Both the position numbers and the translations under genes were made by a program. Of a stretch of DNA of 45,224 bases, positions 13,702-22,155 are shown piece by piece (position 1 is the stretch's first letter; every line of letters begins with the position of its first letter). Location: positions 1-45,224 of the forward strand of contig JAAYNZ010000149.1 in NCBI GenBank assembly GCA_012520595.1, written 5' to 3'. The notes beneath the pieces are model-generated. The model worked only from the letters and a program-made list of their open reading frames with translations, had not been told where the DNA came from and made no database searches. This stretch comes from Candidatus Epulonipiscium sp. (GTDB lineage Bacteria > Bacillota > Clostridia > Lachnospirales > JAAYNZ01).

Positions 13702-14865
13702 TTAGGATAAGGTTTGTATGGTTTCCATGATGTAATCTGCAAATTCTCCGCTCGTAGCTCCTGTATCTCGTCCAGTAATGGTTAATTTTTTCTCTGTAAT
13801 GGTACAAATATCTAAAGCTTGAGTTAATTGATCTGCTTCTTTTATATATCCAATATGAGATAAAAGCATAGCTGCTGCTCGAATGATACTACAAGGATCT
13901 GCATACTGTGCCCTTCCTTCTTCTACCATTCGTGGGGCAGAACCATGAATGGCTTCAAACATGGCATATTGTTTCCCAATATTTGCACTACCTGCTGTTC
14001 CTACTCCACCTTGAAATTCAGCCGCTTCATCTGTCAAAATATCTCCATATAAATTGGGTAAAATAAAAACTTGAAATTGGGTTCTTCTTTTTTCATCAAT
14101 TAATTTGGCGGTCATAATATCAATGTACCAATCGTCCATTTCTATTTCTGGATACTCTTTGGATATTTCTTTACAAATATCTAAGAATTTTCCGTCTGTT
14201 GTTTTTACAACATTAGCCTTTGTAACAACAGTCACTTTTTTCTTTCCATTCTTTCTTGCAAAATCAAAAGCGGATCTTGCAATTCTCTCTACTCCTTGAG
14301 TTGTGATTACTTTAAAATCAAAAGCAACGTCTTCTGTAACATGAAATCCTTGGCTACCTAAAACATAAGCACCTTCTGTGTTTTCTCTAAAAAAAGTCCA
14401 ATCAATTCCTAACTCTGGCACTTTTACAGGTCGAACATTGGCAAATAAGTCTAATTCTTTTCGCATAGCTACATTCGCACTTTCAATATTAGGCCAAGGA
14501 TCTCCTTGTCTTGGAGTTGTTGTAGGACCCTTTAAAATAACATGGCATTGTTTTAATTCTTCTAAGACATCATCAGGAATTGCTTTTCCTACTTTTGCCC
14601 TGTTTTCAATGGTGCAACCTTGAATTTCTTTAATCTTAATTTTTCCTTTTTCTATTTCTGATTGAAGCAAAAATTCTAAAATTCTTTGGGCTTGGTGAGT
14701 AATGGAAGGACCTATACCATCTCCACCTACGACTCCAATTACAATAGTATCCAATTGATCATACTGAATAAAATCCTCTTGATTTTTCATTCGTTCGACT
14801 CGTTCTAGTTGTTGTTGAATTAACTTTCCAAACTTTTCTTTTGCGTCTGTAATCAATGATTCCAT
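13702..14865 (-). CDS. icd: NAD(P)-dependent isocitrate/isopropylmalate-family dehydrogenase, probably isocitrate dehydrogenase
   Basis: A 387-residue beta-decarboxylating dehydrogenase that should turn isocitrate into 2-oxoglutarate. It has the family motifs VGGDGIGP, FRENTEGAY (substrate serine replaced in the Thr/Glu-rich pattern usual for this branch), NLYGDILTDEAAEFQGG and EAIHGSAP. The family also includes isopropylmalate and homoisocitrate dehydrogenases; the aconitase and citrate synthase genes directly upstream decide for isocitrate. Cofactor preference cannot be read securely. Start at 14865 after AAGGAGG, 60 bases behind the aconitase stop. Confidence 0.88.
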   Translation of the reverse strand: MESLITDAKEKFGKLIQQQLERVERMKNQEDFIQYDQLDTIVIGVVGGDGIGPSITHQAQRILEFLLQSEIEKGKIKIKEIQGCTIENRAKVGKAIPDDVLEELKQCHVILKGPTTTPRQGDPWPNIESANVAMRKELDLFANVRPVKVPELGIDWTFFRENTEGAYVLGSQGFHVTEDVAFDFKVITTQGVERIARSAFDFARKNGKKKVTVVTKANVVKTTDGKFLDICKEISKEYPEIEMDDWYIDIMTAKLIDEKRRTQFQVFILPNLYGDILTDEAAEFQGGVGTAGSANIGKQYAMFEAIHGSAPRMVEEGRAQYADPCSIIRAAAMLLSHIGYIKEADQLTQALDICTITEKKLTITGRDTGATSGEFADYIMETIQTLS

Positions 14866-14925: not shown

Positions 14926-16848
14926 TTATGCTTCTGCTTTGATCAAATTAATTTTACCACCAGCTAATAAAGTCTTCCACTCTTTTTCTGTACAATTTAT
15001 TGTCATCTTATATTTTTTTTGTTTTGTTATATTTTCTACATAAACAAGATTTTCTTTTATTGCTTCTTTTACATCTTGAATTTTTAATTCATCAAACTCT
15101 GCAATATCATCATAATCTCTGGCATTACAAAAAACCAATGGAAGAATACCTGCATTAATTAAATTGGATCGATGAATTCGAGCAAAACTTTTTGCCAATA
15201 CAGCTTTGATCCCTAAATACAAAGGTACTAAAGCTGCATGTTCACGACTCGAGCCTTGACCATAATTTTCTCCTCCTATAATAAATCCTCCTCCATTATC
15301 CTTTGCCCTTTTAGGAAATTCTGGATCACAAGGCGTCAGACAATATTCAGCTAAATGAGGAATATTGGAGCGAAAAGGAAGTAATTTTGCATTGGAAGGC
15401 ATAATATGATCGGTTGTAATATTATCTTCTACTTTAATGAGAACTTTTCCTTCTAATACATTAGAAAGAGGAACATTCCTTGGAAAAGGTTTAATATTAG
15501 GTCCTTTAATAACTTCAACTTGACTTCCATCTTCCGCTGGAGGAATAATCATATTATCATCAACAGTAAATGTTTCCGGCATTTCTACTGAAATCTCTAC
15601 GGGATACGTCCGAGGATCCACTAATTTTCCTTCGATAGCACTGATAGCTGCTGTTTCAGGACTTACTAAATAAACACTAGCCGAAGGCGTACCACATCGG
15701 CCTTTAAAATTACGATTAAACGTTCGAAGAGAAATAGCGTTACTAGCAGGTGCTTGCCCCATACCAATACAAGGACCACACCCGGATTCTAAAATTCGAG
15801 CTCCTGCACTAATTAAATCAGCTAATGCACCGTTACTAGCTAACATATTTAAAACTTGTTTAGAACCTGGAGAAATTACTAAACTTACATTGGGGTGGAC
15901 CGTCTTTCCTTTTAATATCTTTGCTACTTTCATTAAATCTTGGTAGGAACTATTGGTACAGCTTCCAATGGCTACTTGATCCACAAGAATTTCTCCTATT
16001 TCACTTACCTTTTTTACATTATCAGGACTATGTGGCATAGCTGCTAAAGGTTCTAAGTCATCCAAACAAATTTCTATGGTTTCATCATAGGTAGCATCTT
16101 CATCTGGCAATATGGATTCCCATACTTCTTCCCGTTGTTGTGCCTTTAAAAACTCTCTTGTAATTTCATCACTTGGGAAAACAGAAGTGGTCGCTCCCAA
16201 TTCTGCTCCCATATTTGTAATGGTTGCCCTTTCTGGTACGGATAAAGACTTAACACCTTCTCCTGTATATTCAATGACCTTCCCTACTCCACCCTTTACT
16301 GTCAGGCGACGTAAGACTTCTAAGATAATATCCTTAGCAGAAACAAAAGGTTTCAACCTTCCAGTCAATCGGACATTAACTACTTTAGGCATAGTAATAT
16401 AATAGGTTCCGCCTCCCATGGCTACGGCCACATCCAATCCTCCTGCTCCAATGGCCAACATACCAAGGCCTCCCCCTGTTGGAGTATGGCTATCTGAGCC
16501 TAAAAGAGTTTCTCCTGGTACTCCAAAACGTTCCAAATGAACTTGATGGCAAATTCCATTTCCAGGTCGAGAAAAATAAATACCATGCTTATGAGCTACG
16601 GTTTGAATGTACTTATGATCGTCAGCATTTTCAAATCCTTGTTGTAACATATTATGATCAATATATGCAACAGATTTTTTTGTTTTGACTCGATCAATTT
16701 CCATGGCTTCAAACTGTAGATAGGCCATGGTTCCTGTAGAATCTTGTGTTAACGTTTGATCAATACGAATACCTATTTCGGTACCCGGTATTAAGTCTCC
16801 TTCCACTAAGTGATTTTGTAAAATTTTTTGTGTAATATTCAGTCCCAT
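14926..16848 (-). CDS. aconitate hydratase
   Basis: A 640-residue aconitase of the short, monomeric-like clostridial type. It converts citrate to isocitrate with a 4Fe-4S cluster, whose cysteines lie in IGSCTNSS and ESGCGPCIGMG. The swivel domain with GENYGQGSSREHAAL follows at about residue 530. The ATG at 16848 is eight bases from GGAGG; the ATG at 16854 is only two bases away, so I chose the inner one. It begins 15 bases behind the citrate synthase stop, so the two are one transcript. Confidence 0.94.
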   Translation of the reverse strand: MGLNITQKILQNHLVEGDLIPGTEIGIRIDQTLTQDSTGTMAYLQFEAMEIDRVKTKKSVAYIDHNMLQQGFENADDHKYIQTVAHKHGIYFSRPGNGICHQVHLERFGVPGETLLGSDSHTPTGGGLGMLAIGAGGLDVAVAMGGGTYYITMPKVVNVRLTGRLKPFVSAKDIILEVLRRLTVKGGVGKVIEYTGEGVKSLSVPERATITNMGAELGATTSVFPSDEITREFLKAQQREEVWESILPDEDATYDETIEICLDDLEPLAAMPHSPDNVKKVSEIGEILVDQVAIGSCTNSSYQDLMKVAKILKGKTVHPNVSLVISPGSKQVLNMLASNGALADLISAGARILESGCGPCIGMGQAPASNAISLRTFNRNFKGRCGTPSASVYLVSPETAAISAIEGKLVDPRTYPVEISVEMPETFTVDDNMIIPPAEDGSQVEVIKGPNIKPFPRNVPLSNVLEGKVLIKVEDNITTDHIMPSNAKLLPFRSNIPHLAEYCLTPCDPEFPKRAKDNGGGFIIGGENYGQGSSREHAALVPLYLGIKAVLAKSFARIHRSNLINAGILPLVFCNARDYDDIAEFDELKIQDVKEAIKENLVYVENITKQKKYKMTINCTEKEWKTLLAGGKINLIKAEA

Positions 16849-16863
16849 GAACATAGCCTCCCT

Positions 16864-18231
16864 CTATTTTATCTTTTTCATGATTTCTAAGGTTACCTTT
16901 TCCAATTCCTCATCTGTAATAGTTGTCACTCGGCCTTCTTCATATTGAGCATCGACCCATTCTTTCACAGCTACTACTACAGGATGTTGTTTATCCATTT
17001 CTTCCTCTTGGGATAAACGAAAATAAGAATTAATCCAGTGAGCGACCCCTGCTAAACCAGAGGTATTACTAACAGCAATTCGCACAGGACGATTCAACAA
17101 TAAATCTGTATTAAATATATTATAAATTTCTTCATTCTTAAGGAGCCCATCAGCATGAATACCAGCTCGAGTAACATTAAAGTTTTTACCAACAAAAGGT
17201 GTTTGAGGTGGTATTTTATACCCAATTTCTTTTTCAAAATAATCCGCTATTTCTGTAATCACAGTAAGATCCATGCCCTCTAAACTTCCTTTAAACTGGG
17301 CATATTCAATAACCATGGCCTCTAAAGGTGTATTCCCTGTCCTTTCTCCTATTCCTAATAAAGAAGCATTTACAGCAGAAGCTCCATACAACCAAGCACA
17401 AGAGGAATTTTGAACTGCTTTATAAAAATCATTATGTCCATGCCATTCTAATAATTCAGAAGGTACTCGCCCATGATGATTAAGTCCATAAATAATTCCT
17501 TGTACACTTCTAGGTAAAGTTGTTCCTGGATAGGTAACCCCATACCCCATTGTATCACAAGCACGAATTTTAATAGGCACTCCTGTTTCTTCCATCAATT
17601 TCATTAATTCGAATACAAAAGGCACAACAAATCCATAGAAATCGGCTCTTGTAATATCTTCAAAATGACATCGAGGACGGATGCCATATTCTATACATTG
17701 TCGAACAACCCTTAGATAATGATCAATGGCTTGTTTTCGAGTCATTTTTAATTTATAGAAAATATGATAATCAGAGCAACTGACTAAAATTCCTGTTTCT
17801 TTTAGTCCAATTTCCTTTACCAACTCAAAATCTTTTTGAGAAGCTCGAATCCAACTTGTAACTTCTGGAAATTCATATCCTCGCTCTAAACATTGGTAAA
17901 CAGCATCGCGATCTTTTTTACTGTATAAAAAAAATTCGCTTTGACGAATAATTCCCTTAGGCCCTCCTAACTTATGCAATAAGTCATATAAATGAACAAT
18001 TTGTTCTGTTGTATAAGGTTCTCTTGATTGCTGTCCATCTCGAAATGTTGTATCTGTAATCCAAATTTCTTCCGGCATATTAATGGGTACAATCCGATGG
18101 TTAAAAGCAATTTTAGGTACTTCATCATAATTATATAAATTACGATATAAATTAGGTTCCTCTACATCTTGAAGTGGATATTTAAACTCAGTACGCTCTA
18201 GTAAATTTGTTTTCTTATTAAATTCTAACAC
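16864..18231 (-). CDS. citrate synthase, Re-type (homocitrate/isopropylmalate synthase-like)
   Basis: A 455-residue member of the HMGL/DRE-TIM superfamily. The metal-binding start motif is ITDTTFRDGQQSR, and EWHGHNDF gives the downstream histidines. The long N-terminal extension (about 50 residues) and overall pattern match the Re-citrate synthase of Clostridium kluyveri, which joins acetyl-CoA and oxaloacetate with the opposite stereochemistry to the usual enzyme. The following aconitase and isocitrate dehydrogenase genes support this over homocitrate or isopropylmalate synthase. GTG start at 18231 with AGGGGG ten bases upstream; a nearby ATG is out of frame. Promoter at 18312-18340. Confidence 0.9.
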   Translation of the reverse strand: MLEFNKKTNLLERTEFKYPLQDVEEPNLYRNLYNYDEVPKIAFNHRIVPINMPEEIWITDTTFRDGQQSREPYTTEQIVHLYDLLHKLGGPKGIIRQSEFFLYSKKDRDAVYQCLERGYEFPEVTSWIRASQKDFELVKEIGLKETGILVSCSDYHIFYKLKMTRKQAIDHYLRVVRQCIEYGIRPRCHFEDITRADFYGFVVPFVFELMKLMEETGVPIKIRACDTMGYGVTYPGTTLPRSVQGIIYGLNHHGRVPSELLEWHGHNDFYKAVQNSSCAWLYGASAVNASLLGIGERTGNTPLEAMVIEYAQFKGSLEGMDLTVITEIADYFEKEIGYKIPPQTPFVGKNFNVTRAGIHADGLLKNEEIYNIFNTDLLLNRPVRIAVSNTSGLAGVAHWINSYFRLSQEEEMDKQHPVVVAVKEWVDAQYEEGRVTTITDEELEKVTLEIMKKIK

Positions 18232-18311
18232 AATTCATCTACCCCCTAAAAGTTCTCGCTATCATTTAAATTGTACCGGACAAAATCCATTGAACAAAAA
18301 TTATAAATAAC

Positions 18312-18340
18312 ATTGTATATGATTCCATCTATATTGTCAA
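18312..18340 (-). promoter_or_regulatory. sigma-A promoter of the citrate synthase-aconitase-icd operon
   Basis: On the minus strand TTGACA (18340-18335), 17 bases, TACAAT (18317-18312). It lies about 75 bases before the GTG start. I saw no riboswitch or T-box in the short leader, nor any gene in the rest of the gap up to 18527. Confidence 0.85.
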
Positions 18341-18527
18341 CAAATTTTCTAAAAATTGTACTTAATTTTATTTTAATTGCATTTTAAAATTATTTTTTTA
18401 GAAAAACAATTTTAAAAACCCTATTAAATAAGGCTTCTATTGTATATTCTAATTTTACAAGGATTAAGTTTATTGCTTATATGCAAACATACACATCAAA
18501 ACTTGCATTTTTATATCATAAAAAGGA

Positions 18528-18770
18528 TCATATTATATAAGGAGAAATTAAAATCTTTTTTTCTTTTTTACAATAGGAACAGCGAAATAGATGAAGGCAT
18601 TCCTCTCCTATTACTCCATCATTTTGATTTTTAATATCCATCGAAATCGTAGGCATATAGGAATCTAAATAATCAATGACAGCTCCTTCATCTTTCATTA
18701 CATGATGACAAGAAGGACAATCCATTTCTTGCTTTCGTAAACCATTGCATAAAGGGCAAACAATTTCCAT
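18528..18770 (-). CDS. small cysteine-rich (zinc-finger-like) protein
   Basis: An 80-residue protein with CPLC, CPSC and a C-terminal CSYCKK, so two or three CxxC knuckles that could hold one or two zinc ions. The middle part carries VIDYLDSYMPTI. The ATG at 18770 follows AAGGAG. Similar short CPxC proteins occur in spore-forming Firmicutes without an assigned role. It stands alone, beside the DnaA-box region. Confidence 0.7.
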   Translation of the reverse strand: MEIVCPLCNGLRKQEMDCPSCHHVMKDEGAVIDYLDSYMPTISMDIKNQNDGVIGEECLHLFRCSYCKKEKKILISPYII

Positions 18771-19132
18771 AGTATAACTCCTTTTTATTTTTATTCTTCT
18801 AAAATCAGTTCTAAAATAAATACAAAAGTATATTTATAATAATATAGTAACTTATTTTTTTGTTTTTATTACTATCGAAAAAATTACAATTTTTTTAATA
18901 TTTTATTGCTATTTTACATAAAAACATTCTTTTTTGTGGATAACTTTATATTTTATCCACATTATCCACATAGTTATACACAATTCTATTTTCTTTGAAC
19001 CGTCGATTCTACTATGTTTTTATTCTATTTCCACATCTTTCACTTTTTATTTACTCACAGAATGAAAATTGTGGATAAACCAGAAAAATATTAACATAAC
19101 TTGAAACAAACAATAAAAAGGAGGTTTTTTAC
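18771..19132. other. AT-rich gap with DnaA-box cluster
   Basis: No gene is present. 18780-18934 is almost pure A+T and could unwind easily. TTATCCACA (the consensus DnaA box) occurs four times without mismatch: 18935-18943 (minus), 18953-18961 (plus), 18962-18970 (plus) and 19070-19078 (minus). TTATACACA at 18974-18982 is a one-mismatch box. Such a density is typical of replication origins or DnaA-titrating/regulating clusters. No dnaA, dnaN or rpmH lies in the window, so a regulatory cluster is the safer reading. Confidence 0.75.
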
Positions 19133-19351
19133 ATGTTCATAAAACAAGCTTCTTATCGAAATCTAGAAGATATTCCTCTTCCCTTTCGTCGTTCTTCTCC
19201 TTCTTTTTTTGCAGAATCAAAAGAACCTTTGAAATCAGAAATCCCGATTGATTCTACTTCACGTACCTCTCTCCCATTGGAAAATATTTTATTTTTGCTC
19301 CTTTTATTTTTACTTCTCTTTAATCTAAACAGCTCTTTGATTTCTTTTTAA
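19133..19351 (+). CDS. small Phe/Leu-rich protein, family member 1 (single hydrophobic block)
   Basis: A 72-residue protein with a soluble N-terminal half (about 45 residues, Ser/Pro-rich) and a C-terminal block ENILFLLLLFLLLFNLN. That block matches the first hydrophobic block of the four small proteins at 19463, 19731, 21790 and 21985; the second block is absent. The ribosome-binding site AAGGAGG is very strong. The last codons lie in a terminator stem. I know no described function. Confidence 0.7.
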   Translation: MFIKQASYRNLEDIPLPFRRSSPSFFAESKEPLKSEIPIDSTSRTSLPLENILFLLLLFLLLFNLNSSLISF

Positions 19352-19366
19352 TCAAAGAGCTCTTCT
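19331..19366 (+). terminator. terminator overlapping the end of small protein 1
   Basis: A perfect 11-bp inverted repeat (AGCTCTTTGAT at 19331-19341 with 19351-19361) followed by a T-rich stretch; the stop codon (19349-19351) is in the loop. Confidence 0.75.
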
Positions 19367-19370
19367 TTTG

Positions 19371-19400
19371 TCACACTCTTTCCTTCTTTTTCATAATATA
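19371..19400 (+). promoter_or_regulatory. possible mother-cell sporulation promoter (sigma-E or sigma-K)
   Basis: TCACACT (19371-19377), 14 bases, CATAATATA (19392-19400). It fits five of seven positions of the sigma-E -35 element, and the -10 element also fits the sigma-K pattern CATANNNTA with AC upstream. It lies about 60 bases before the start at 19463. Confidence 0.45.
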
Positions 19401-19462
19401 TACTGTGTAACAGGTCCAGCAACATTTTCTAGGACCTAAAATTAGAAAGGAGGAGTAGAACA

Positions 19463-19639
19463 ATGGCTGAAGCTACAAATTTCTGGGGTGGAAAAAATAA
19501 TAACATCATCTTTTTATTTTTCTTCTTACTACTTTTTAATACTGGGTGGGGATCTGGAAAAGAGAATAGCTTATTCTTTATATTGATTCTATTCTTGATT
19601 GTTTTCTTTGGCGGTTTTGGTGGTGGCGGATTCTGCTAG
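19463..19639 (+). CDS. small Phe/Leu-rich protein, family member 2
   Basis: A 58-residue protein with two hydrophobic blocks, NNNIIFLFFFLLLFN and LFFILILFLIVFF, joined by a short polar turn (TGWGSGKENS), and a glycine-rich tail GGFGGGGFC. Ribosome-binding site AAAGGAGGAG. Layout and sequence agree closely with the proteins at 19731, 21790 and 21985. The size and glycine-rich end recall small spore-coat proteins of Firmicutes, but this is analogy only. Membrane insertion is possible, although each block is short for a helix crossing a membrane. Confidence 0.8.
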   Translation: MAEATNFWGGKNNNIIFLFFFLLLFNTGWGSGKENSLFFILILFLIVFFGGFGGGGFC

Positions 19640-19661
19640 TTCTTACTCTCGTTTGACTTTC

Positions 19662-19685
19662 TAGCTCCCTTTTTACAGGGAGCTA
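19662..19685. repeat. inverted repeat between small proteins 2 and 3
   Basis: TAGCTCCCT (19662-19670) pairs perfectly with 19677-19685. No T-run follows on either strand, so it is more likely an RNA stabiliser or processing site than a terminator; the next small gene may be read through it. Confidence 0.5.
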
Positions 19686-19730
19686 ATAACCTTACCATTC
19701 ACCTACATTGTACTGAAAGGAGGATCTTTA

Positions 19731-19898
19731 ATGTCTACAAATATCGGATGGGGTAAAAATTCCAATATTATTTTCTTATTCTTTTTCTTACTTTTATTCA
19801 ACAATGGTAGCTGTCAAGGATTTAAAGAAAATAGTATGTTTTTCGTCTTAATTTTATTCTTAATTGTTTTTTCTAGTGGATTTGGATTTGGATTCTAA
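19731..19898 (+). CDS. small Phe/Leu-rich protein, family member 3
   Basis: A 55-residue protein with the same plan as its neighbour: SNIIFLFFFLLLFN, a polar turn with FKENSM, FFVLILFLIVF and a tail SSGFGFGF. Ribosome-binding site AAAGGAGG. I see no own promoter, so it is probably cotranscribed with the gene at 19463. It ends in front of a bidirectional terminator. Confidence 0.8.
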   Translation: MSTNIGWGKNSNIIFLFFFLLLFNNGSCQGFKENSMFFVLILFLIVFSSGFGFGF

Positions 19899-19911
19899 TT
19901 AATAAATCAAT

Positions 19912-19941
19912 AAAAAGCAGAGGTTTTTCCTCTGCTTTTTT
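19912..19941. terminator. bidirectional terminator between small protein 3 and the helical protein gene
   Basis: GCAGAGG (19917-19923) pairs with CCTCTGC (19929-19935), with A-run before and T-run after, so it ends transcription from both convergent genes. Confidence 0.88.
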
Positions 19942-20407
19942 AGAGCTCTTTAAACAATAATACAACAGCAAGTAACATGATCATATCGCCTCTGGGATTG
20001 CCTGTTCCTAATAAATTACCACGCATACAATCTTCATCAACTTCATACACTCCATCTTTCCGATAAAGATGATCAATGGATGGAGAAGATGAAAACCAAT
20101 AACTTTGTAAATCCCTTTTTAAAGATTGAATCGTATGAAAAGCTTGCATGGTTTCTACCAATTGGTCAATTACTGGATGCTGATTAATAGTAATAAAGGG
20201 CTTTATGGCTTCTAACAGTTGAACCTCTTTAGTGGCATTTTGTTTTGTTTGCTGATGTTGATCTTGAATCACACTCCGAAGGGTTCCTATATACTTATCA
20301 TGAATCATAGATTTTATTTCTTTCATGATCTCCTCAAAATCTTTTTTAATATGTTCTTCACTGGTCATCATATGAGCCACTTGATAAATCGATGGATGAT
20401 CAGACAT
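19940..20407 (-). CDS. helical protein of unknown function in operon with the S8 protease
   Basis: A 155-residue, mostly helical, charged protein. Residues 64-90 (QLLEAIKPFITINQ and following) carry a motif also found twice in the protein at 22342 and once in that at 23019. A predicted C-terminal hydrophobic tail MIMLLAVVLLFKEL follows NLLGTGNPRGD. The ATG at 20407 overlaps the protease stop by eight bases, and its ribosome-binding site AGGAGGGG lies in the last protease codons, so the two are coupled. No known family recognised. Confidence 0.75.
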   Translation of the reverse strand: MSDHPSIYQVAHMMTSEEHIKKDFEEIMKEIKSMIHDKYIGTLRSVIQDQHQQTKQNATKEVQLLEAIKPFITINQHPVIDQLVETMQAFHTIQSLKRDLQSYWFSSSPSIDHLYRKDGVYEVDEDCMRGNLLGTGNPRGDMIMLLAVVLLFKEL

Positions 20408-21647
20408 TTCCTTCCCCTCCTAATACTAATTTTTCTACCTGAATAAGCCCCCATCCTTGTTGAGATTGAGGATAGTTTAAATCCATTGTTGCATTTTTTA
20501 ATCTAGCTTTAACTTCATTGGGTGTTAATTTAGGATTGCGTTCTAATAAAAGAGCAATGGCTCCACTAATCATAGGAGTCGACATGGATGTGCCACTGGA
20601 TTTTCGGTATCCTGTATTTCCATTGAAAGTGAAATAGTTTACAGAAGAAGAAGGAATGTACTCTTTATTGGAGTCGCAAGACATAATATTGGATCCCGGG
20701 GCAACAACATCGGGTTTTTTTATGCAAGCTTTGGTAGGTCCTCTTCCCGAATAATCTGTAATCGTATCTCCATGAATTTGCACTGTATTTTGATCATCCG
20801 ATGCCCCCACAGTAATCACTTTTCGCCCAATACCTGGAATCGTAACACTTTGTGGCTTTGGCCCATTATTCCCAGCTGCAACAACTACAACAATCCCTGC
20901 ATCCCATGCTGCATTGACAGCCTTTATTAAAGGAGACTCTTCTCCTTCCTCTGGATCTGTACCAATCGATAGATTAGCAACTCGAATATTATATTGCTGT
21001 CTATGGTCAATCATCCATTGTATCCCCGCTAGTACATCAGATGTATTTCCTTTTCCTTTTTCATCTAAAATTTTGATTCCTATTAAGTTACATGCTGGAG
21101 CAATTCCACGATATTTTCCATTGGAACGATATCCATCTCCCCCTATAATTCCTGCCACATGAGTACCATGATAATGATCATCATAAGGTTGTTGATGCCC
21201 ATTGACAAAATCTTTAAAGGCCACAATTCGATTCCGATGGTAATGTAAGTCATCATGAGGAAAGATTCCTGAATCTAATACTGCTACTCCTATACCTGAT
21301 CCTCTATAGCCTTTTCCTTGTACTTGTTCTGCTCCAACGGCTTTCCTAGCTATATCCATTTGAGCCGTTACATGATTATCCCTTGTAATTTGCTTAACTC
21401 CATGAAGATGACGTAAAAATTTCATATGTTTTTTTGGTAATTCTACAACATAGGCATCAATCATAGGCAGCGTATATTTAACAACTCCTAATTCCTTTAT
21501 TTTCTCTTCTTCTTCATCTGCCATACTGCATTCTACAATTACTTGGATCATTTCTTCTTCCTTTTCTTCTTTAGCCACTCCTTCTATTTTAGGTAGAAAG
21601 GATTGTAAAGAAAGTCCTAATGCCATAAGTAATAACTCCTTTTTCAT
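20400..21647 (-). CDS. subtilisin-like serine protease (peptidase S8)
   Basis: A 415-residue secreted protease. Residues 1-25 form a signal peptide, about 33-92 look like an I9-type propeptide (MIQVIVECS ... DAYVVELPKKH), and the catalytic domain follows with Asp125 (VAVLDSG), His160 (HGTHVAG), oxyanion Asn260 (VAAGNNG) and Ser354 (SGTSMSTP). All active-site residues are present. The ATG at 21647 follows GAGGTGA; the upstream extension to 21689 lacks a ribosome-binding site. A sigma-E-like promoter lies at 21674-21702. It probably acts outside the cell or in the forespore-surrounding space; its substrate is unknown. Confidence 0.95.
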   Translation of the reverse strand: MKKELLLMALGLSLQSFLPKIEGVAKEEKEEEMIQVIVECSMADEEEEKIKELGVVKYTLPMIDAYVVELPKKHMKFLRHLHGVKQITRDNHVTAQMDIARKAVGAEQVQGKGYRGSGIGVAVLDSGIFPHDDLHYHRNRIVAFKDFVNGHQQPYDDHYHGTHVAGIIGGDGYRSNGKYRGIAPACNLIGIKILDEKGKGNTSDVLAGIQWMIDHRQQYNIRVANLSIGTDPEEGEESPLIKAVNAAWDAGIVVVVAAGNNGPKPQSVTIPGIGRKVITVGASDDQNTVQIHGDTITDYSGRGPTKACIKKPDVVAPGSNIMSCDSNKEYIPSSSVNYFTFNGNTGYRKSSGTSMSTPMISGAIALLLERNPKLTPNEVKARLKNATMDLNYPQSQQGWGLIQVEKLVLGGEGNV

Positions 21648-21673
21648 TTTTTTCACCTCACTTCTTCCCCTAC

Positions 21674-21702
21674 AGTATATGAAATACATTGAAAAAAGTT
21701 GA
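21674..21702 (-). promoter_or_regulatory. sigma-E-like promoter of the protease operon
   Basis: On the minus strand TCAACTT (21702-21696), 14 bases, CATATACT (21681-21674). The -10 element agrees at seven of eight positions with CATACANT and the -35 at five of seven with KMATATT; spacing is as expected for this sporulation sigma factor. Confidence 0.6.
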
Positions 21703-21728
21703 TGATATAAATTTTTTTTAAAAAAGTG

Positions 21729-21757
21729 TCAAATTTTATTCCTTTCGTTCATACAAT
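21729..21757 (+). promoter_or_regulatory. sigma-E-like promoter of small proteins 4 and 5
   Basis: TCAAATT (21729-21735), 14 bases, CATACAAT (21750-21757). The -10 element fits the sigma-E consensus fully and the -35 element at six of seven positions. It is about 30 bases before the start at 21790. Confidence 0.7.
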
Positions 21758-21789
21758 AAAATGAAAGTGTTTTTATAGGAGGGAATTTT

Positions 21790-21948
21790 ATGACAGAAGC
21801 ATCTTACAAAGGAGGACAAAATAACTTAATTTTCCTTTTGTTCTTTTTACTTTTATTTAACGATAACTCTTGGATTGGATTCCAAGAAGATAAACTATTC
21901 TTTATTCTTATTTTATTTGTACTTATTTTTTTCAGCACCTCGTTTTAG
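21790..21948 (+). CDS. small Phe/Leu-rich protein, family member 4
   Basis: A 52-residue protein: NNLIFLLFFLLLFN, a polar turn with FQEDK, LFFILILFVLIFF and a short tail STSF without the glycines. Ribosome-binding site AGGAGGG. It is first in a two-gene unit with the protein at 21985 and has a good sigma-E-like promoter, which links the family to sporulation. The function is unknown. Confidence 0.8.
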   Translation: MTEASYKGGQNNLIFLLFFLLLFNDNSWIGFQEDKLFFILILFVLIFFSTSF

Positions 21949-21984
21949 TGCAGGTATTTAAAAATGATTTAGGAGGTATTGTAT

Positions 21985-22155
21985 ATGGGTTTTGGAGATT
22001 TTTTTAAAGGTAATAACATCTTCTTTTTATTCTTCTTCCTATTGCTTTTCAATGACAATACTCGATTTGATTTTAAAGAAAACAACTTATTTTTTATCTT
22101 AATTCTATTTCTTATCGTTTTTAACGATGGCTTTATTGGAGGATTCCAAAAATAA
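21985..22155 (+). CDS. small Phe/Leu-rich protein, family member 5
   Basis: A 56-residue protein: NNIFFLFFFLLLFN, a polar turn with FDFKENN, LFFILILFLIVFN and a tail DGFIGGFQK. Ribosome-binding site AGGAGG. It lies 36 bases behind the protein at 21790 without its own promoter and is followed by a terminator. Confidence 0.8.
   Translation: MGFGDFFKGNNIFFLFFFLLLFNDNTRFDFKENNLFFILILFLIVFNDGFIGGFQK

Follow-up and report, generated by a model that had tools for sequence, protein, structure and literature searches.

What is a dense cluster of DnaA boxes doing far from any dnaA gene? The question is raised by a stretch of 45,224 nucleotides from Candidatus Epulonipiscium sp. (contig JAAYNZ010000149.1; hereafter the window), in which four exact copies of the DnaA box TTATCCACA and one of TTATACACA lie inside 144 bp. 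A first-pass annotation of the window had placed these five boxes correctly, as a pattern scan confirms; it does not list F4 (19027) and F5 (19036), both weak boxes, or the TTNACATAA motifs on either flank.

A DnaA-box array in the window

The array and its flank consist of the following features (R and F boxes lie on the minus and plus strands, respectively):

18785..18934, no strand: A+T-rich flank, 12.7% G+C, on the R1 side of the array
18913..18921, plus strand: M1, companion motif TTNACATAA (TTTACATAA), 40 bp ahead of F1
18935..18943, minus strand: R1, exact DnaA box TTATCCACA, kept 18 bp upstream of F1
18953..18961, plus strand: F1, DnaA box TTATCCACA, unchanged across eight homologues
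18962..18970, plus strand: F2, DnaA box TTATCCACA, at F1 + 9 bp
18974..18982, plus strand: F3, DnaA box TTATACACA, at F2 + 12 bp
19027..19035, plus strand: F4, weak DnaA box ATTTCCACA (TTTTCCACA in relatives)
19036..19044, plus strand: F5, degenerate DnaA box TCTTTCACT (TNNTCCACA in relatives)
19070..19078, minus strand: R3, exact DnaA box TTATCCACA (TGTGGATA in 8/8)
19091..19099, plus strand: M2, second companion motif TTAACATAA (TATACATAA or GTTACATAA in relatives)

The flank has the lowest G+C content of any 150 bp of the window, so that the A+T-rich stretch of the first-pass annotation is real, but its description as nearly pure A+T was overstated. Dinucleotide shuffles of the window gave 0.63 exact boxes on average and in none of 100 cases the four observed. 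A genome-wide count, proposed in the annotation as a check, returned 47 exact copies of TTATCCACA against 35 of a reversed control pattern (2.52 Mb, 230 contigs); boxes are thus not unusually common in this genome, and four-box clusters of such density, with about 1.5e-7 expected genome-wide by chance, are not frequent at random. At least three exact boxes stand close together at two sites of the genome only, the array and positions 10831-11244 of contig C15. Two exact copies of TTATCCACA 12 bp apart, with TTCTCCACA near, make G000:C173:5565-5585 (G000 being the source genome) a possible small third cluster. The DnaA protein of the genome has an intact DNA-binding domain (Bac_DnaA_C match).

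Box arrays recur at two addresses in the Lachnospirales

The core TTATCCACA-TTATCCACA-nnn-TTATNCACA, with at most three mismatches, was found in 92 of 295 Lachnospirales genomes and its reversed control in none; the genomes are draft sets, and these counts hold for the samples. Analysis of the neighbouring genes, with families and neighbours named from Pfam and NCBIfam matches, BLAST clusters or reading of the sequence, revealed two recurring addresses, class A and class B. Class A arrays lie 3' of murC, usually ahead of dnaD-dnaI and often as twins 140-180 bp apart; in family f17 the array is still at murC, though dnaD is not adjacent. The source genome has twin three-box arrays of this kind (G000:C15:11053-11244, locus L014) between murC and the genes for DnaD (DnaB_2 domain) and a DnaI-like helicase loader. 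The class A array recurs at murC across much of the order, and through it DnaA could control its own loader genes.

The array of the window belongs to class B, which lies between a synthase-aconitase-icd operon and a locus that encodes an S8 protease along with small hydrophobic proteins. Class B arrays were found in 8/8 sampled genomes of family f24, 2/2 of f21 and 3/22 of f22, as well as in the source genome, whose one congener has a contig that stops short of the site; at a further class B site (L184, JACMMQ010000110.1) the array is upstream of the synthase. The full element (R1-18-F1-9-F2-12-F3-42-F4-9-F5, joined by R3 and a TTNACATAA motif on either flank) is present in all eight sampled genomes of one sister family, and a reduced three-box core occupies the syntenic place in four families. 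In the alignment of f1 and f24, M1, R1, F1 to F5, R3 and M2 keep near-constant spacing except between F3 and F4, which are 42 bp apart (start to start) in f24 and 53 bp, i.e., 11 bp more, in the window; the distance from F4 to R3 is 43 bp in the window and 42-43 bp in relatives. Identity between the window and f24 is 86% for the elements and 44% for the spacers. With a model of the element built from sequence alone, full-length matches (99-138 bits) were confined to f1 and f24; the next match scored 46 bits. Outside these families only the F1-F3 core is clearly retained, which is also most of what is left in f21 and f22. Thus, the array is a conserved element at a syntenic place.

A companion motif in register with the boxes

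In all eight f1/f24 elements TTNACATAA stands at -40 (once -39) from F1, and the motif or a close variant recurs after R3, where ACATAA of M2 is invariant (8/8). Near arrays the motif is enriched 25-31x. At the class A discovery loci it is found mostly at +60 to +74, a 25-fold enrichment over the remainder of these loci; 11 of 12 oriC loci scanned were without it. A pattern search of named genomes gave a second set of 58 class A or dnaD-side loci, with some species in common with the first set; here, TTNACATAA was present at 34 loci, 33 at +72 to +74 (best other core permutation, 7), often 5 bp after a TGTGNATAA box, which in turn has a further box-like site 11 bp away. The motif may bind DnaA weakly, reading TTATGTNAA on the opposite strand, or be bound by a different protein. 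We also considered a -35 hexamer (TTNACA), and rejected it: no consistent -10 was seen by eye 17 bp downstream, and the conserved TAA does not fit.

An oriC2-like geometry without the unwinding module

The next-best matches to the element model that could be placed lay mostly in dnaA-dnaN intergenic regions. In Clostridioides difficile, oriC2 with its trio is the unwinding side of a bipartite origin (PMC7561715). A template derived from class B (18/9-11/12/42-43/9) was placed on 12 dnaA-dnaN regions, chosen as class B model matches and not an order-wide sample, with 300 random templates as a control. In 11 of the 12, F5 fell directly before the GC patch (GCCCC) and the TACTACTACT (TACTAC) trios; since the position of the trios was not used in placing the template, this agreement is independent support. 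The best five regions (1, 2, 6, 6 and 7 mismatches) beat all 300 random templates, whereas for the oriC2 regions of L304, L308, L313 and L318 the fit was not clearly better than that of random templates. Class A arrays do not fit the full oriC2 template and have the three-box core alone in common with it.

The array thus has a DnaA-box scaffold with the spacing seen in the order's oriC2, its F5 being the counterpart of the trio-proximal box, but beside this last box it has neither GC patch nor DnaA-trios. A DnaA box followed by a trio module was detected in 10 of 13 oriC2 controls and in none of 14 class B loci, bar one poor match made of A+T only (L087). Our main new finding is that the element has the geometry of oriC2, the dnaA-dnaN side of the origin, of other families in the order, with the unwinding module absent.

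The first-pass annotation had seen in the cluster the look of an origin, which the box geometry bears out, and had argued against forks leaving it in both directions, which the GC skew bears out as well. The genome's dnaA maps to another contig (C229:9948-11234), flanked by dnaN, recF and gyrB to one side and by rnpA and yidC to the other (names from translations), so that, as annotated, the window has no dnaA, and the true oriC (rnpA-dnaA-dnaN-recF-gyrB) is on a different contig from the array. The GC skew, whose switch the annotation had proposed to locate in the full genome, is negative in the window to the left and right of the array; there is no switch at this site and dnaA and dnaN are not its neighbours. 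In a complete relative (G037), dnaA (1,912,981) marks the skew switch; the orthologous array (1,426,427), 486 kb off, shows none. A working second replication origin would agree with an oriC2-like scaffold that adjoins an A+T-rich stretch; however, this stretch is on the R1 side, and the trios and unwinding region of oriC2 are on the opposite side. With the skew, the missing trios and the location of oriC elsewhere we rejected this candidate, to which we give hardly any probability.

The same geometry without the unwinding module would also be left by an old duplication of oriC2 that has since become an inert relic. Against this, the elements were held at 86% while the spacers dropped to 44% between families, and the array fits the scaffold better (2-5 mismatches) than the same lineages' own oriC2 regions do (7-10). 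In the source genome, the dnaA-dnaN intergenic region (L013, reverse complement) has R1, F2, F4, F5 and trios, with F1 and F3 degenerate, and shows 7 mismatches over six boxes against 3 in the ectopic copy. We regard a relic as quite improbable.

The genes next to the array vary

In the window, the array is flanked by the following features:

18528..18770, minus strand: left neighbour, zinc-ribbon-like ORF of 80 aa, CxxC motifs by eye, no family match
19133..19351, plus strand: right neighbour, ORF of 72 aa ending in a hydrophobic tail, the first in a series of small hydrophobic proteins
16864..18231, minus strand: HMGL-family synthase (Pfam/NCBIfam), with aconitase (14926-16854) and isocitrate dehydrogenase (13702-14865)
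18312..18340, minus strand: promoter of the citrate-synthase operon, TTGACA-N17-TACAAT, 11/12 consensus matches, about 600 bp from the array

From its operon context, the synthase is probably a Re-citrate synthase. Its promoter is found at five other class B loci, 78-183 bp from F1. A TTGTATACAAT-like palindrome lies at the -10 of the synthase promoter in the window (18305-18345) and in L086, L087, L098, L099 and L184, and L087, L098 and L099 have a gene for a GntR-type regulator (by eye) in the operon; palindrome and regulator gene likely form a local repressor circuit. On the right (19133-22155), proteins of 50-70 aa with a FLFFFLLLFN motif and an S8 protease adjoin the array at most class B loci; those of the small proteins that were tested have no Pfam or NCBIfam family match. 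Among loci, the left neighbour is a phosphoesterase, a zinc ribbon, citrate synthase or icd, and the right neighbour is a small protein or leuS; in G047 the array is kept while acn, the synthase and the small-protein locus are gone. None of the adjacent genes, on either side, is constant.

These data bear on the main rival to the reading that we favour (see below), namely that DnaA acts here as a local transcription regulator, which represses or activates the leftward gene or the citrate-synthase operon and/or the rightward small-protein gene. Replication state would then be coupled to the supply of 2-oxoglutarate or to a sporulation-like locus, as at B. subtilis sda. DnaA does control transcription at several B. 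subtilis clusters (PMC4447404), in every case the array lies upstream of the citrate-branch operon, also when this is reduced to icd as in G047, and R3 of f24 may coincide in part with a weak -35 (TTGTGG-N17-TATACA) ahead of the small-protein gene. Moreover, all copies are intergenic and near promoters, which speaks against a pure scaffold and leaves room for local regulation. However, the neighbours and their distance vary widely while the internal geometry is fixed, and the operon has a strong promoter of its own, 78-183 bp off or, in the window, about 600 bp. A promoter scan of positions 18200-20000 gave 9 hits against 10.2 in shuffles, and a promoter for the right-hand gene is unsupported. 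An Sda-like tie to sporulation, suggested in the first-pass annotation, is not supported: those right-hand proteins that were tested had no hit in Pfam or NCBIfam, and thus none to Sda, for which reason an Sda-type sporulation gene was rejected, and the array of G047 survives without the small-protein locus. We consider local regulation by DnaA possible, if rather doubtful.

A putative non-unwinding sink for DnaA

We favour the reading that the array serves as a conserved DnaA-binding scaffold at an ectopic site, whose boxes are ordered and spaced as in oriC2 but which has no unwinding module, and that it titrates or competes for DnaA; the chances for and against it seem to us about equal. Variable neighbours and promoter distances together with a fixed internal spacing favour a role in trans, in the availability of DnaA, over the control of one promoter. 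The array keeps what would organise DnaA on double-stranded DNA, without that by which DnaA opens DNA, and probably serves as a decoy or sink that contributes to the timing of replication start. DnaA-ATP would assemble on it as on oriC2 and yet be unable to open the DNA, and each copy would retain DnaA, as a cooperative complex, at a distance from oriC. Duplication of the site by a fork would double the sink and lower free DnaA, so that the next initiation would be delayed or steadied. DnaA binding, its titration and a change in timing are what we infer. Against the scaffold, F5 is degenerate in the window and the F3-F4 spacer 11 bp longer; titration by a single extra cluster may, in addition, be small, which counts against a sink.

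More tentatively, the array could represent a new class of control element in the Lachnospirales, in which a vertically inherited non-unwinding mimic, the sister three-box array at murC/dnaD and a dedicated TTNACATAA-binding factor set the availability or activity of DnaA. The element bears on how Firmicutes without datA, DARS, SeqA and Hda restrain DnaA outside oriC, and it points to exact sites across a large gut-bacterial order; our literature search returned no paper combining 'DnaA boxes' with 'Lachnospiraceae'.

Comparison with known systems

In E. coli, datA is a non-origin DnaA-binding locus that restrains initiation, as the array putatively is, and needs an IHF site; DARS1 and DARS2 share with the array opposed DnaA boxes at fixed spacing in a non-origin locus. 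The array could be a nucleotide-state element, whose complex hydrolyses or exchanges the DnaA nucleotide while TTNACATAA binds an IHF- or Fis-like architectural cofactor, and its fixed multi-box geometry, opposed boxes and conserved non-box motif in register agree with this. However, in the DARS core box I is opposed to boxes II and III (PMC5742627), and in the DARS1 region, on which our comparison rests (the DARS2 stretch scanned had too few boxes to use), the boxes converge at 14 and 12 bp, whereas R1 and F1 diverge at 18 bp. The array does not have a three-box core with DARS spacing, and we rejected DARS as a match. Moreover, datA, DARS and IHF are absent from B. subtilis (PMC13220808). Such an element seems to us improbable.

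The array can also be set beside the DnaA-box clusters of B. subtilis (sda/yqeG, ywlC, ywcI/vpr, gcp-ydiF, yydA and others). Several boxes stand near each other in the array, in an intergenic region outside oriC, and the likeness to such clusters seen in the first-pass annotation is well founded. Six of the B. subtilis clusters jointly restrain initiation, and their deletion leads to early initiation (PMC13220808, PMC5295017). The sink that we favour would work like these clusters and be built from an origin scaffold; the array differs from them in its fixed spacing shared with oriC2, its conservation across families, the companion TTNACATAA and its other flanking genes.

With oriC2, as known from C. 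difficile and B. subtilis, the array shares order, orientation and spacing (R1-18-F1-F2-12-F3-42/43-F4-9-F5). It differs in F1-F2, 9 bp apart against 10-11 bp in oriC2, in having R3 and the TTNACATAA motifs in addition, and in being without GC patch, DnaA-trios and dnaA-dnaN. Here, the assembly platform of an origin would have been copied minus its opening module, and the assembly of DnaA separated from the unwinding of DNA.
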